Below are positions 13,481-25,038 of a DNA stretch of 64,000 bases, piece by piece (the first letter of the stretch is position 1; every line of letters starts with the position of its first letter). Under the pieces are notes generated by a model, which ran no database searches, was not told the origin of the DNA, and saw only the letters and a list, made by a program, of their open reading frames with translations. Origin of the DNA: Alphaproteobacteria bacterium (GTDB lineage Bacteria; Pseudomonadota; Alphaproteobacteria; Rhizobiales; Beijerinckiaceae); assembly GCA_016869595.1 (NCBI GenBank), contig VGDT01000003.1, positions 32,266 through 96,265 of the forward strand, read 5' to 3'. The translations under genes were made by a program, and so were the position numbers.

Positions 13481-14746
13481 ATGCGGGAAATTAAACTTTC
13501 GGACTTGAAGGCCAAGTCCGCCGCCGAACTCCTCGCTTTCGCCGAAGAGCATGAAGTCGAGAACGCCTCTCTCCTGCGCAAGCAGGAGCTCCTCTTCGCT
13601 ATCCTGAAGCAATTCGGGAGCCGGGACGTCGAAATCGTCGGCGAAGGCGTCGTCGAAGTGTTGCAGGACGGCTTCGGCTTTCTGCGCTCGCCCGACGCCA
13701 ATTATCTCGCCGGTCCCGACGACATTTACGTCTCGCCCTCGCAGATTAGAAAGTTCGGCCTGCGCACCGGCGACACGGTCGAGGGCATGATCCGAAGCCC
13801 TAAGGAGGGCGAGCGCTATTTCGCGCTGTTGAAGGTCAACAGCATCAATTTCGAAGATCCGGAGAAGGTGCGCCATAAGGTGCCCTTCGACAATCTGACG
13901 CCGCTCTATCCGGATGAGCGGCTCAAGCTCGAAATCGAAGATCCGACCAAGAAGGATCTCTCTTCGCGCGTCATCGATCTCGTTGCGCCGATCGGCAAAG
14001 GCCAGCGTGCGCTGGTCGTGGCGCCGCCGCGCACCGGCAAGACCGTGCTTTTGCAGAATGTCGCGCAATCGATCACGACCAATCATCCGGAATGCTATCT
14101 CATCGTTCTTCTCATCGACGAGCGGCCTGAAGAAGTGACCGACATGCAGCGCAGCGTGCGCGGCGAAGTCGTGTCGTCGACTTTCGACGAGCCGGCCGTG
14201 CGTCACGTGCAAGTCGCCGAAATGGTGATCGAGAAAGCGAAGCGCCTCGTCGAACATCGCCGCGACGTGGTGATCCTGCTCGACTCGATCACGCGGCTCG
14301 GGCGCGCCTACAACACTGTCGTGCCGTCGTCCGGCAAGGTGTTGACCGGCGGCGTCGACGCCAACGCTCTGCAGCGGCCGAAGCGCTTCTTCGGCGCGGC
14401 GCGCAATATCGAGGAAGGCGGTTCGCTCACGATCATCGCGACGGCCTTGATCGACACCGGCTCTCGCATGGACGAAGTCATTTTTGAGGAGTTCAAGGGC
14501 ACCGGCAACAGCGAGATCATTCTCGACCGCAAGGTCGCCGATAAGCGCGTCTTTCCGTCGATCGACATCACGCGCTCAGGCACCCGCAAGGAGGAGCTGC
14601 TTGTTGCAAGCGACATCTTGAAGAAGATGTATGTGCTGCGCCGTATCCTCAATCCGATGGGCACGGTCGACGCGATCGAATTCTTGCTCGGAAAGCTGCG
14701 CGAGACGAAGAACAATCAGGGCTTCTTCGATTCGATGAATACGTAG
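13481..14746 (+). CDS. rho: Transcription termination factor Rho
   Basis: [59 protein letters not shown]. Confidence 0.97.
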
Positions 14747-14792: not shown

Positions 14793-15806
14793 TTATTGCT
14801 CCGGCTTCTTCGTTCGATCCGGCGCTGGTTCATGCGTTGGCGGCGTGAGGTCGACCGGCGGAGCCTTTGCATCGACAAGCGAGAAGCCGATCGTCTTGCG
14901 GCGGCTGACCGCTGTTTCGCCTTCCGGGGTTGGCGTCTGGAGCGAATAGGACACGACGTAAAGCGGCTCTACTAAGGATGAGCGCTCCTTTTCCGGCATG
15001 ACATACATGATCCTGGACCAGGCGACGTTCGCTTTGCCCTTTTGGGCTGCGACGATGTCGCGTTCGAACCGGCCGCGTAGCGCATCGATGGACTGTTTTG
15101 GCTCGAGCCAACGGCCACGACCGGTTGGCTCTTCCGTTTGGCCTGCTTGTTTTGACGCAACGGTCACGCCGCCCAATCGCAGACCGGATACGCGTCCGCT
15201 GGCGTGCACCGCTATACGCAGACCGGCGTTCGCCAATTCGATGCCATTGATCGCGCGCCGCAAGGTGATGCGATATTCAACACGCTTGCGCTCGCTCGCT
15301 TTTGCCGCGCGCGAAGCGCCGCCGACCCAGGTGAAGCCGACATCGGCTTTCTGCCAATCGTACTGCGCTGGATCGATCAGCTTTCGTTGCGCAAGCGCAT
15401 CAAACGCACTGTGGGCAATTTTCATTGCATCGCCCTGAGCGAGATCGCGCTCAGGCGCTCGCGCGGAAGCAAGCTCAGTGTCGACGATCCTCAGTTCATC
15501 GTAATCGGGCAGATAGGTCATTTCGAGCGAAGGCGCGTCAGGAATGGCGACTTGCATGCGACGCGCTTGAATATTCTTCAGGGGTTCGACGATGGGAGCC
15601 GCCGCTCGAAGTTCGCGCCCGGTGAGGGATTCGGCAGCCGAGCGGGCCAAATCCGAGATCGCTGATCTATCGCGTTCCTTCCAGCTCATTTCAAAAGTCG
15701 CGACGCGCTGCGGAATGTCCGATTTGCTGGGTTCCTGTGCGCGCGCGTCAATCGTTCCAAGCGACATTGAACTTGCGAGGACTGCGGCGAGAGAAAGATT
15801 TTTCAT
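14793..15806 (-). CDS. Secreted protein of unknown function, possibly PepSY/FTP propeptide-like
   Basis: N-terminal signal peptide MKNLSLAAVLASSMSLGTIDARAQ; VEYRITLRRAINGIELANAGLRIAVHASGRVSGLRLGGVTV resembles a peptidase propeptide strand pattern (weak). Confidence 0.5.
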   Translation of the reverse strand: MKNLSLAAVLASSMSLGTIDARAQEPSKSDIPQRVATFEMSWKERDRSAISDLARSAAESLTGRELRAAAPIVEPLKNIQARRMQVAIPDAPSLEMTYLPDYDELRIVDTELASARAPERDLAQGDAMKIAHSAFDALAQRKLIDPAQYDWQKADVGFTWVGGASRAAKASERKRVEYRITLRRAINGIELANAGLRIAVHASGRVSGLRLGGVTVASKQAGQTEEPTGRGRWLEPKQSIDALRGRFERDIVAAQKGKANVAWSRIMYVMPEKERSSLVEPLYVVSYSLQTPTPEGETAVSRRKTIGFSLVDAKAPPVDLTPPTHEPAPDRTKKPEQ

Positions 15807-15827
15807 AATAGCCTCCACGAAAATATT

Positions 15828-16652
15828 TCAGCAGCCGCTGGCGCCGTGGTCGTACATAATCCAGCAGAACCAGCCCCAAGGTTCCGGCGGCGTGAAAAGC
15901 AACGAATCGCCGCGCAACTTCGCTGTGTCGCGAACCCAGTCGCAGTGGCTTGAGTCGAGCCCGTGCGTCAGCGCGATCGGAGAATTGTCGCCGGTAAACC
16001 AGCCAGGACGATCTTCCATCTCGTCGATCCAAGCTCTCGCATTCGTCTTGGAGTTCGTCTCCTCGAAGAAATCGCGCGGCTGGTCGTCCTTGACCGAGGG
16101 AGAATTATGATAGCCGAACTGTTGGCGAACTTCGTGATTGAAGTTGCGTGAAAGCGAATCGAGGTTCAGCGTGCAGCTCGTGACATACATTGCGTACACG
16201 GCCTTGTTTCCACCTTGTAGACCGAGCCGCGCCTGTGTTTCGAGATTGACCGTGCAGCGTCCATTGCGCATGAATCCGAACTGCACCAGCGCGCGATTGC
16301 CATGGCCAGCGTAAACCGTGAGTAGAAAGTTATCGCCATACAAATTGTCGACGCCAGATAATCCAGCCATCGTGGATTCGAAATAATCCTGCGGCCAGGC
16401 GTTCGAATTGGTCCATCGCTGGCCGGTCCAGCCATTGGCGTTGAGAGAGCTTTGGAGGCTTGACGTCACGTCGTTGAGATCGGCGTTTTCGCAGCCGTTG
16501 CCCGAAAAGTCGGTCGATTCGTCGAGATAATATGTCTTGTCGGCCCATGCAGGTTGCGCGGCCAAAATTAGAAAGAGCAATGCGGCGAGATAGCTCTTCT
16601 CCCGTGTGCTTGCGACGTTTTGCGCAATGGGTTTTTCATCGATGGCAAACAT
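15828..16652 (-). CDS. Secreted protein with candidate caspase-like (clan CD-type) His/Cys arrangement
   Basis: Signal peptide ...AALLFLILAAQPAWA; NFLLTVYAGHGN and AVYAMYVTSCTLN match the strand-GHG ... strand-C pattern of caspase/gingipain folds. Confidence 0.5.
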   Translation of the reverse strand: MFAIDEKPIAQNVASTREKSYLAALLFLILAAQPAWADKTYYLDESTDFSGNGCENADLNDVTSSLQSSLNANGWTGQRWTNSNAWPQDYFESTMAGLSGVDNLYGDNFLLTVYAGHGNRALVQFGFMRNGRCTVNLETQARLGLQGGNKAVYAMYVTSCTLNLDSLSRNFNHEVRQQFGYHNSPSVKDDQPRDFFEETNSKTNARAWIDEMEDRPGWFTGDNSPIALTHGLDSSHCDWVRDTAKLRGDSLLFTPPEPWGWFCWIMYDHGASGC

Positions 16653-16702
16653 TTTCGTCTCCTTGATATTGCCTGCAAGAAAAGACTGGCGCTTAACGAT
16701 AG

Positions 16703-17074
16703 TCAGTTGGAAACAACCTCCGCCGCGCAACGACCGTCGTTGCAATGCGGCGCGCGCAGCGGCGGACAGTAAAGCCGTTCAATCTGCGGACATGCGGCGC
16801 CTTGCGCCGCCGCGGATACACGTTGTGCTTCGCTGGCGCGCACGGAGGTCGGACACCGGCAACCTTTGACGCCGCCGGCGACTGCGCATGGCTCCTCCGG
16901 CGTACATCGCGTTGCATCGGCGACGATGCGATCGTAGTCGGCAATCGTGCTTTGCGCGCGCGCTGTTTCGAAACATGGATGAATGACGAAGCCGACGGCG
17001 AAAAGAATTGTCGCGTAAGCTTGCGTTTTAACGGACGCGAAAATTCTAAAGCACAATGCGCGAAGCACGGACAT
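16703..17074 (-). CDS. Small secreted cysteine-rich protein
   Basis: Hydrophobic N-terminus then CTPEEPCAVAGGVKGCRC...CPQIERLYCPPLRAPHCNDGRCAAE; same strand as the two genes downstream. Confidence 0.5.
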   Translation of the reverse strand: MSVLRALCFRIFASVKTQAYATILFAVGFVIHPCFETARAQSTIADYDRIVADATRCTPEEPCAVAGGVKGCRCPTSVRASEAQRVSAAAQGAACPQIERLYCPPLRAPHCNDGRCAAEVVSN

Positions 17075-17357
17075 GGAGATTCTCCGATGCTTACGTCACG
17101 AAGCGTGAACTTTAAAAGAACGCTTGAAAAGACTCGCCAACGAGAAACGGCCAATGCGTCGAATGGTTCCTGCGAAGGCTGACTTTTAAAAACAACTGCT
17201 GCGTTCTAGCGCTTCAGAATATGAAAAGAGTAGTCGCTAGGATTGGCCCGTGGCATGAGTCGCGTGAAGCTCATCGAAGCGTTGGGCAAATGTTCTCGAA
17301 CTTCACCAATGTATGGACGATTGTCGACCTTGCGCGCGATTTGAAGCGCGCCGCGCC

Positions 17358-18659
17358 GTGACCTCGCGCGACACAATTTTTGCGCTTGGCACTGGCGCCG
17401 GACGCGCTGCGATCGCGGTCATCCGAATATCCGGTCCGGGAGCGGGCGTCGCGCTTGAGACGTTGGCCGGGAAGCTTCCCGAGCCCCGGCAGGCGAGTTT
17501 TGCGATTTTGCGCGACCCAGCGACCGATGAAATGCTCGACCGTGGCGTCGCGCTTTTCTTTCCAGGGCCTGCCTCCTCGACGGGGGAGGACTACGCCGAG
17601 CTGCAGCTCCATGGCGGCCGCGCGGTCGTGGAGAGCACGCTTGCCGCTTTGCATCGGCTCTCTGGTCTGCGGCCTGCTGAACCCGGCGAATTCGCCCGGC
17701 GCGGCTTCGCCAATGGCAAGCTTGACCTGTCTCAGGCCGAAGCGCTCGCCGATCTCGTCGACGCGCAGACAGAGGCGCAGCGCCGGCAGGCGCTTCGGAT
17801 CGCGGGCGGGGCCTTGCGGCGCAAAGTTGAAGGCTGGCGGGGGGTTCTGGTCGATGCTTTGGCGCTTCTTGAAGCCGAACTCGACTTCAGCGACGAGGCG
17901 GACGTCGGCGGATTTTCACAGGCGCGGCTCGCTGAAATGCTTTCTCGCGTCGCCGAAGACATGCGGGCGGCGCTACAGCTCGCGCCGGCGTCCGAGCGCA
18001 TGCGCGACGGCTTCACGGTCATCATACTGGGGCAGCCAAACGTAGGAAAATCAACGCTGATCAACGCTCTGACCCAGCGCGATCTCGCGATCGTTTCGGC
18101 GATTCCCGGCACGACCCGAGACATGATCGAGGCTCACCTCGATATTGGCGGACTTCCGGTCACGCTGATCGACACCGCGGGGCTACGCGAGGCGGCGGAC
18201 GAGATTGAGCGTATCGGCGTCGATCGGACGCTGGCGCGCGTCGAGACCGCAGATCTGGCGCTGTGGCTATCGGATGCGGCGGAGCCGCCGCCGCCTGCGA
18301 GCGACGTCGAAATGATTCGCGTCGCCACCAAGATCGACCTGAGACCAGCGCCGGAAGACGCAATCGCGGTCTGCGCCTTGAGCGGCGAGGGGCTCGAAAC
18401 TCTCGCCGCCGCGATCGAAGCGCGCGCCCGCGCCCGGCTGGGCGACGGCGCGGCGGCGCTGATCGTCAGGGACAGGCATCGCTTGGCCTTGGAGCAGGCA
18501 GTGGAGAGCATCGAAACGGTCATCGGCGGCGGCGGAGCGCTCGAACTTCATGCCGAAGAGCTGCGTCGCGCGAGTCGTGCGCTCGGCCGGATTGTCGGCG
18601 CCGTCGATGTGGAGGAGGTGCTGGACGCGGTTTTCTCGCGATTCTGTATTGGCAAATGA
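17358..18659 (+). CDS. mnmE: tRNA modification GTPase MnmE
   Basis: GTG start; DTIFALGTGAGRAAIAVIRISGP; GQPNVGKSTLINALTQRDLAIVSAIPGTTRD; C-terminal FCIGK. Confidence 0.96.
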   Translation: MTSRDTIFALGTGAGRAAIAVIRISGPGAGVALETLAGKLPEPRQASFAILRDPATDEMLDRGVALFFPGPASSTGEDYAELQLHGGRAVVESTLAALHRLSGLRPAEPGEFARRGFANGKLDLSQAEALADLVDAQTEAQRRQALRIAGGALRRKVEGWRGVLVDALALLEAELDFSDEADVGGFSQARLAEMLSRVAEDMRAALQLAPASERMRDGFTVIILGQPNVGKSTLINALTQRDLAIVSAIPGTTRDMIEAHLDIGGLPVTLIDTAGLREAADEIERIGVDRTLARVETADLALWLSDAAEPPPPASDVEMIRVATKIDLRPAPEDAIAVCALSGEGLETLAAAIEARARARLGDGAAALIVRDRHRLALEQAVESIETVIGGGGALELHAEELRRASRALGRIVGAVDVEEVLDAVFSRFCIGK

Positions 18660-23015: not shown

Positions 23016-24698
23016 TCAGAACAGCGGAGACAGGAGGCTGCCGCCGAAGCGATAGGTCAGACCCGCCGAGACGACGATCGGATTGATCGGCAGAGACACT
23101 TTGACCGGGATGAAGATCGCTCCAACTGCGGGCACTGCCGGCGAGAAAGCGACGACGGTGGAGTGAACCGTCGGATGCAGCCCGACATATTTGAAGTCGA
23201 CGTTTATGCCCCAATGTTCGTTGAGCATATAATCGACGCCGACCTGTCCAACCGGGCCCCATGAAGGGGTAACCGTGGCATATTGGAAGGTGCTGAGGAC
23301 GCCCCCCGTACCAGCAAGCGGAGCGCCAGGGGTGAAGGGAATCGACCAGGTGTCGTTGTTGACGCGGGTATTCCAGAAGGTGGTGAAGTTAACGCCGACG
23401 CCGAGGTAGGGTTGGACGGCGCCGAAATTGGTGAAGTGATATTGCGCCATGACGGATGGCGGGAACAGCCAGGCGCGAGCGAAGTCGCTAGAGATTGTGC
23501 CGGTGCCCTGGATGTGATGCGGCGTAACGCAGCAAATCGCCTCGATCGCCCAGTTCTTGGTGAGGTAATAGGCCGCATCAAGCATTGGGATAATTGACTT
23601 AGAGGTGTTCGTGCTCGCGCCAGCAATCACGCCGTTTAGGGTGGTCAGGCCTGTCTGTCTGCCAATGGATCCCAAAAGAGGGTGTCCGGCGCCCGAGTCG
23701 AACACCGTGCCATGGCCGGCGAGCGGCATGACGCCGGCAATCTTCAGGCGAACCTGAAACGGCTGATAGCTATCCACGAAAACCGCCGGCGGGGGCGGTC
23801 CTTTGATCGACGGCAGAGCGCCGCCGGCAGTCGAAGGCGCTATAGCCGCGAAGGGGTCGAAGTGCCAGTTCACGCCCGCGCGAACTGTATGAAAGCGGGT
23901 CGGCGAGCTATGGGCCGCGGCAAAGAGAGGTCCTCCCGTGCCGAAGCCAGGCAAGGCATTGAGCGGAACGGAATTAGCCGTTGTCGTGCCGAGATCGACA
24001 TAGAGATATTCGGCCTTGAGCGACCATGACGGGAATGCCGAGGGCGACCACTCGACGCCGCCGCCCGCCGTCCAGCCGACTTTGGTGTTGTCGTAATAGC
24101 CGTGTCCGATGGCGCTTATTCCAGCAGTAGCGAGGAAGTTGTCGGCGAACCCGACGTTGTTGATGACCTGGCCATAGGCGAAACCGCCGGTGCCGTAGGC
24201 CATCAGATTGGGCATGGAAGGCAGGGTGAGGCCGACTCGGCCGCGCACCGTGCCGAACCAATCGACGTTCTTCGTCGAATTCATGGTCAGTATGTGGGGC
24301 CCTGCGCCGTCAACGATGCCAACCGCGGTGTTGCTGTGGGACACCGCGTCAGTGGCCTGAATGTCCGCCTCGACGCCCAGGACGAGCCACGGGTTGAACT
24401 GATAGTTGTAACCGAGCTGTCCGCCGCCGGCGACGCCATGCAGATTCTGGTCGACGCTCCAGGCCGAGCCAAACGGCGCCGCCGCCAGACCGGCCGCGCT
24501 AAGATAGCCGAGGCCGCCTGTTTCCCGAGTGCTGTCGCCGAAGGCATAACCGATGTTCACGCCGCCGTAGAGGCCGGTCCAGGTGAATACGGGCGGCGCA
24601 GGCGGCGGAGCTTTATAAACGGGCAGATCAGCGGCAAACGCGGCGCCGGCGCTCCCGACCATAAGAGCGGCCAACGTGCTGCGGACAAAATTCTTCAT
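23016..24698 (-). CDS. Outer-membrane protein, apparent fusion of Omp25/31-like barrel and OmpW-like barrel
   Basis: N-half: signal peptide, ADLPVYKAPPPAPPVFTWTGLYGGVNIGYAFGD ... RFHTVRAGVNWHFDPF; C-half: NWAIEAICCVTPHHI..., LFPPSVMAQYHFTNFGAVQPYLGVGVNFTTFWN, terminal SAGLTYRFG typical of OmpW. Confidence 0.8.
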   Translation of the reverse strand: MKNFVRSTLAALMVGSAGAAFAADLPVYKAPPPAPPVFTWTGLYGGVNIGYAFGDSTRETGGLGYLSAAGLAAAPFGSAWSVDQNLHGVAGGGQLGYNYQFNPWLVLGVEADIQATDAVSHSNTAVGIVDGAGPHILTMNSTKNVDWFGTVRGRVGLTLPSMPNLMAYGTGGFAYGQVINNVGFADNFLATAGISAIGHGYYDNTKVGWTAGGGVEWSPSAFPSWSLKAEYLYVDLGTTTANSVPLNALPGFGTGGPLFAAAHSSPTRFHTVRAGVNWHFDPFAAIAPSTAGGALPSIKGPPPPAVFVDSYQPFQVRLKIAGVMPLAGHGTVFDSGAGHPLLGSIGRQTGLTTLNGVIAGASTNTSKSIIPMLDAAYYLTKNWAIEAICCVTPHHIQGTGTISSDFARAWLFPPSVMAQYHFTNFGAVQPYLGVGVNFTTFWNTRVNNDTWSIPFTPGAPLAGTGGVLSTFQYATVTPSWGPVGQVGVDYMLNEHWGINVDFKYVGLHPTVHSTVVAFSPAVPAVGAIFIPVKVSLPINPIVVSAGLTYRFGGSLLSPLF

Positions 24699-25038
24699 CG
24701 GAACCCCCGGATTAAATTCTGCGATGACGGTCGACGACAAAAGCGCCGAAGTCACTGTCACGTTGCTCTAAAATTTTGGTAATGCAACCGCATCTGATGC
24801 AAAATTAGGCTGTGAGCTGCTCATTCTTGGCGGCTGTGGCTGTGCGGCAACAATCCTTGTAATCCATGTGAGATAGCTGGCGCCGCTTTGCTGCAGTCGC
24901 TGCCATGGACAGGACCGTAAGTTTGACTTTAGGCAGCCTCACGGCTTGCCGCGTCAGACGCTGCGCAGTAATCCTTTCGCCGCCGCAGCGCGGCGAAAAA
25001 TAGAGAACCGCGCAGAGATTCCACCAATGCGAGGATAA

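Follow-up and report, generated by a model that had tools for sequence, protein, structure and literature searches.

A DUF6345 protein and its recurrent exported partner: a candidate clan CD-like cysteine peptidase encoded between rho and mnmE

The recurrent pairing of DUF6345 proteins with a partner protein, either encoded separately or fused to them, is well shown by the loci compared here. The member studied is encoded in a cassette of three genes in the window, i.e., the whole stretch of 64,000 nucleotides that was analysed. We give an even chance to the reading that this member is a secreted, clan CD-like cysteine peptidase restrained in trans by a PepSY/FTP-like partner. The cassette, its candidate catalytic codons and its neighbours are located as follows (window coordinates):

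16703-17074, minus strand: small secreted Cys-rich protein, 123 aa with 10 Cys, first gene of the cassette (open reading frame and translation)
15828-16652, minus strand: DUF6345 protein, 274 aa, predicted to be exported, candidate clan CD-like cysteine peptidase (PF19872 match)
16542-16652, minus strand: N-terminal signal segment of the DUF6345 protein, residues 1-37, site AWA/DK (sequence and hydropathy peak)
16302-16304, minus strand: codon of the candidate catalytic His117 (YAGHGN; His in 34/34 DUF6345 domains)
16173-16175, minus strand: codon of the candidate nucleophile Cys160 (VTSCTL; Cys in 31/34, Ser in 3/34)
14793-15806, minus strand: predicted exported partner, 337 aa, PepSY/FTP-like core motif at about residues 170-210 (position, size and core motif as in other DUF6345 loci)
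13481-14746, plus strand: rho
17313-18659, plus strand: mnmE

The original prediction described three same-strand reading frames with signal-like N-termini, forming an island between rho and mnmE, and it was right on both points. In each of the three proteins an AxA-type site (AWA/DK, ARA/QE and ARA/QS) follows a hydrophobic N-terminal segment, and all are predicted to carry export signals. The intergenic gaps are only 50 and 21 bp, which suggests that the genes form an operon read as one transcript; no promoter or terminator signal of the cassette stood clearly above shuffled sequence. The open reading frames of rho and mnmE lie about 2.6 kb apart in the window versus about 160 bp in Methylobacterium bullatum (L159), so the cassette is an insertion relative to the latter. 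The L159 record (NZ_LR743510.1, 2.8 Mb) is labelled a plasmid, has a rho-mnmE-parA region and looks chromosomal. With 54-60% GC, the cassette lies below the mnmE side (65%) and near the rho side, which says little on recent transfer.

The source genome of the window holds a single copy of the cassette, and another genome of the same genus (G134, loci L002 and L008) possesses the corresponding three-gene set at the equivalent site. Measured against this second cassette, the mature DUF6345 protein has a dN/dS of 0.019, the partner one of 0.17 and the Cys-rich gene one of 0.42, which establishes the three reading frames as real genes. The signal segment of the DUF6345 protein is less constrained than its mature part (0.41 vs 0.019).

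By its profile match the middle protein is a member of DUF6345. Residues 63-214 match Pfam PF19872 with E=9.4e-9 and 35.5 bits, above the curated cut-off of 26.9 bits, and the protein retains the family-conserved residues D107, H117, G118, G148, C160, G180 and W208. A search for DUF6345-type families had been proposed from the sequence and thus found its target; the same proposal had suggested that the module might be undescribed, which is not wholly so: Pfam has no model of the partner family but already lists that of the middle protein. PF19872 is an uncharacterised family without recorded function, and no mention of DUF6345 was found in the literature searched. The middle protein has no match in NCBIfam. 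An origin from phages, plasmids or anti-phage defence was considered and rejected, as tblastn matched the protein to nothing among phages or plasmids and PADLOC offered no model for it.

Among the sampled genomes DUF6345 is rare in Pseudomonadota, being present in 2 of 298 of the host's own order and in 3 of 399 of the phylum. It is more frequent in the phylum to which L015, a metagenome-assembled genome titled Deltaproteobacteria, belongs (13/284), occurs in 7 of 248 Planctomycetota, and is likewise found in one archaeal control genome, that of Methanosarcina acetivorans. A search of the genome contigs with the L003 protein gave no matches; a second search used a DUF6345 consensus together with a Deinococcus protein. 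The consensus, which scores 198 bits against PF19872, was a search query alone, and we draw no evidence from it. Two genomes, G1180 (L051, L056, L057) and G1185 (L052, L058), contain two to three DUF6345 paralogues, each with its own partner gene.

A partner accompanies the DUF6345 domain in 33 of 34 cases, 26 times as a downstream gene and 7 times in fusion, with L032 as the sole exception. In 25 of the 34 it follows immediately on the same strand, and in one more (L051) after an intervening gene. The latter (L051:3637-4386) resembles by eye a gene for a protein like the formylglycine-generating enzyme. Separate partners usually possess a signal or lipoprotein segment and are mostly 270-375 aa long as read here. 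Among the fusions the partner is C-terminal in L009, L010, L061 and L068, and N-terminal in L014, L045 and L046. A hidden Markov model built from the separate partners finds the fused partner domains, which were outside its training set, at E=6e-11 to 6e-3; L010 gave no match at the 0.05 limit of this search and is called a fusion through its homology to L009. Partner groups left out of the model were recovered at E=1e-17 to 1e-2, apart from L005/L059 and L062, which were missed, and the window pair, which was marginal (0.05-0.08). Loci L054 and L055 carry an identical DUF6345 and partner pair in two genomes, in which the partner starts in another frame and is perhaps frame-shifted.

Co-occurrence of the three genes, which the original prediction had asked to be checked, is borne out for the DUF6345 protein and its partner, fusions included, but not for the Cys-rich gene, which among the fetched loci is seen in the genus only. 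Outside the genus it is only the pair that recurs, reaching into distant phyla of bacteria, and not the three-gene set.

The likeness of the downstream gene to PepSY/FTP propeptides, noted from the sequence, is retained in part. The core motif of the partners (V.F.R..DG.PV.GPGSK..V....G) resembles that of the PepSY/FTP propeptides of M4 peptidases and of YcdB/YcdC (DUF4901), but the Pfam matches among 22 partners are weak and fall below the Pfam cut-offs (FTP in 3/22, best E=0.05; DUF4901 in 4/22). The printed positions of these matches lie mostly on the core motif (window partner, L048, L054), and elsewhere in L063.

The fold, the enzymatic activity, the role of the partner as inhibitor or foldase and the substrate are the parts of the proposed mechanism that we infer. 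The DUF6345 protein would be exported to the periplasm or to the outside of the cell and would probably adopt a caspase/gingipain-type fold. There, His117 and Cys160, placed behind successive core strands, would act together as the catalytic dyad, and the enzyme would be a cysteine endopeptidase. The PepSY/FTP-like domain of the exported partner may bind the peptidase, aiding its folding and/or holding it inactive, until displacement or degradation of the partner would release the peptidase from this state. In other genomes both parts form one polypeptide, which would be zymogen-like; in the window they are encoded by separate genes, and the partner would act in trans. This interpretation of the fused proteins as zymogens, and of the split pair as an enzyme on which an inhibitor or foldase acts in trans, is drawn by analogy with PepSY domains, YpeB and the gingipain propeptides. 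PepSY domains are inhibitors of peptidases in the same polypeptide, and SleB is under the control of a separate PepSY protein, YpeB (PMC4282423). Gingipain propeptides are inhibitors of their cognate enzymes (PMC3677877).

Like the M4 propeptides, the DUF6345 partner is fused to or adjoins a hydrolase, here a candidate one; the M4 propeptides, however, serve zinc metallopeptidases, whereas the enzyme here is a candidate cysteine peptidase. PepSY/FTP-like inhibitor domains are known so far mainly from zinc metallopeptidases, and the fold of the gingipain propeptide differs from PepSY. SleB and YpeB likewise represent a secreted hydrolase under a separately encoded PepSY protein, as proposed for the DUF6345 pair, but SleB is a peptidoglycan hydrolase. 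High-scoring members of PF19872 from Deinococcus, a deltaproteobacterial metagenome-assembled genome and a third genome are single proteins with the partner part at the N-terminus, in contrast to the separate genes of the window.

We extend this interpretation to the whole family more tentatively, at somewhat short of even odds: DUF6345 may represent a new clan CD family of secreted cysteine peptidases under the control of a PepSY/FTP-like inhibitor domain, the two parts being joined in a zymogen in certain phyla and split into a trans-acting pair elsewhere, as in the window. The proposal gives a testable identity to DUF6345, a domain spread over several phyla of bacteria, and to its partners, for which Pfam has no model. 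If true, a PepSY-like inhibitor would be seen to work with a caspase-type enzyme, in fused as well as in split form, and the evolution of such restraint in bacteria would become testable.

Instead of inhibiting the DUF6345 protein, the partner might serve to secrete it, localise it or anchor it to the surface. This we consider unlikely, if the strongest of the alternatives. The signal segment of the partners in L049, L051, L052, L053 and L058 ends in a lipobox-like Cys, which may fix the pair to the membrane; against this stand the N-terminal, propeptide-like position of the partner in Deinococcus and two more genomes and the resemblance of its core motif to FTP.

The candidate active-site residues are strongly conserved. 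Both NFLLTVYAGHGN and AVYAMYVTSCTLN are found in the window DUF6345 protein, with 43 residues from His117 to Cys160. In an alignment of 34 domains from several phyla, 29 of them below 80% identity, the His of the H-G motif is present in all 34, the following Gly in 32 and the Cys in 31. An Asp located 12 alignment columns before the His (10 residues in the window protein) is kept in 32 of 34, as is a Trp in a later part of the alignment, and no further His or Cys of the alignment is equally conserved. Some bias is expected in these counts, as members were found through a profile containing the conserved columns; the search did not force the Cys, since variants with Ser turned up. The row of L062 is misaligned, and its printed spacing of 30 is wrong, the true Cys probably lying further downstream (VSCGVL). 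The suggestion made from the sequence, that His and Cys form a clan CD-like layout, is thus upheld as a candidate, both in the spacing of the motifs and in their conservation among homologues.

The three domains with Ser in place of Cys belong to G540 and to the two Paracoccus copies used, and because of this substitution some DUF6345 members may be inactive. On Paracoccus plasmids (L009:4680-6359, L010:2899-4500 and L011:2929-4692) the DUF6345 domain and the partner are fused, no signal peptide is evident and Ser replaces the conserved Cys. The L010 fusion gene has bhcR of a beta-hydroxyaspartate cluster on one side and purM on the other. L068 has the fusion layout of the Paracoccus type and keeps the Cys. 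It is possible that the Paracoccus-type fusions form a cytosolic branch that is either inactive or of a Ser type.

Such variants could be taken to mean that DUF6345 as a whole is a degenerate, non-catalytic caspase-like domain for extracellular binding or signalling, with the partner as its ligand or anchor. The loss of Cys in two unrelated lineages is in line with this, as is the lack of an evident signal peptide in the Paracoccus copies and L068, and many CHAT-like domains are thought to be inactive. Such a reading nevertheless appears improbable given the His in every domain and the Cys in 31 of 34, the very low dN/dS of the mature protein (0.019) and the presence of both residues in the window protein.

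The likely assignment of the candidate peptidase to clan CD is based on the order, spacing and profile alignment of these residues. In DUF6345 a hydrophobic stretch precedes HG and another precedes the Cys, both read as strands from sequence only. The same order of His before Cys after strand-like stretches, with a Gly following the His, characterizes clan CD (C14 caspases, C25 gingipains, C11, C13 and CHAT). The spacing of 43 in the window protein compares with 42-49 in clan CD, namely 42 in caspase-7, 46 in PmC11 and 49 in MARTX-CPD, and the Gly beside the catalytic His is conserved throughout the clan CD families with known structure (PMC4357240). In hhalign comparisons DUF6345 matches CHAT with E=0.002 (0.018 in the other direction) and C25 with E=0.016-0.019, both weak matches in which the two His residues are aligned with each other, as are the two Cys. 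Reversed decoys gave E of at least 0.5; C25 against CHAT gave 8e-5, and for CHAT against C11, two families placed in clan CD, E was 0.63. Scored one by one, members of CHAT, C25 and C11 rank above 292 background reading frames, some of which are spurious, with AUC values of 0.89, 0.83 and 0.78.

The family searches suggested in the original prediction gave a different result: with HMMER, DUF6345 matched neither a Pfam clan CD family nor a solved structure, and in this it differs from the clan, to no family of which it has a family-level sequence match. A profile search of solved structures returned matches only to repeat proteins (Pizza), which we judged to be chance. AlphaFold runs with four sequences each, for the window DUF6345 protein and the high-scoring L015 domain, reached pLDDT values of 31 and 34, too low for use. 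The conserved Asp and Trp could also be compatible with another fold.

DUF6345 might then be a His/Cys enzyme outside clan CD, e.g., a transferase or amidase, under a PepSY-like regulator as in SleB/YpeB. To this the low model confidence and the lack of a sequence match to any known peptidase family would lend themselves, and PepSY proteins are known to regulate non-proteolytic enzymes too (PMC4282423). His stands before Cys in DUF6345, however, with strand-like hydrophobic stretches ahead of each and some 40-50 residues between them, and its best profile matches are CHAT and C25 with the residues in register. In papain and NlpC/P60 folds the Cys precedes the His. We therefore regard an enzyme of another clan as a poor prospect, and retain the clan CD-like peptidase with its PepSY/FTP-like partner as the preferred reading.

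The window partner itself is assigned to the partner family mainly by position and motif, its sequence match being marginal. Against Pfam it matches only DUF4901, on the core motif, with E=0.065 and 13.8 bits (cut-off 27). Partner models built with it left out score it at E=0.05-0.09, which is marginal and not clearly above background, and with the partner model it ranks top of 605 reading frames of the window. In hhalign its segment VEYRITLRRAINGIELANAGLRIAVHASGRVSGLR is aligned to the core V.F.RtldG.pViGpgSk..V.l..dG.v, with a score of 26.0 vs a maximum of 24.4 among 120 decoys. It resembles partner genes elsewhere in position, size, strand, export signal and motif, and is conserved in the sister genome. 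That the gene is unrelated to the partner family and adjoins DUF6345 by coincidence, as its left-out E-values might suggest, is very unlikely in view of its rank in the window, its hhalign score above all decoys exactly on the core motif, its fitting position, length, export signal and strand, and its conservation in the sister genome.

The Cys-rich protein (16703-17074) belongs to no family in Pfam, NCBIfam or PADLOC. Among the fetched loci its orthologue is found only in the same genus (L002/L008), with no relative in the other DUF6345 loci fetched or in the plasmid collection; our guess is that it represents a lineage-specific accessory or substrate. Elsewhere in the window, a reading frame of 581 aa on the minus strand (23016-24761) reads like a tandem of two outer-membrane beta-barrel proteins.
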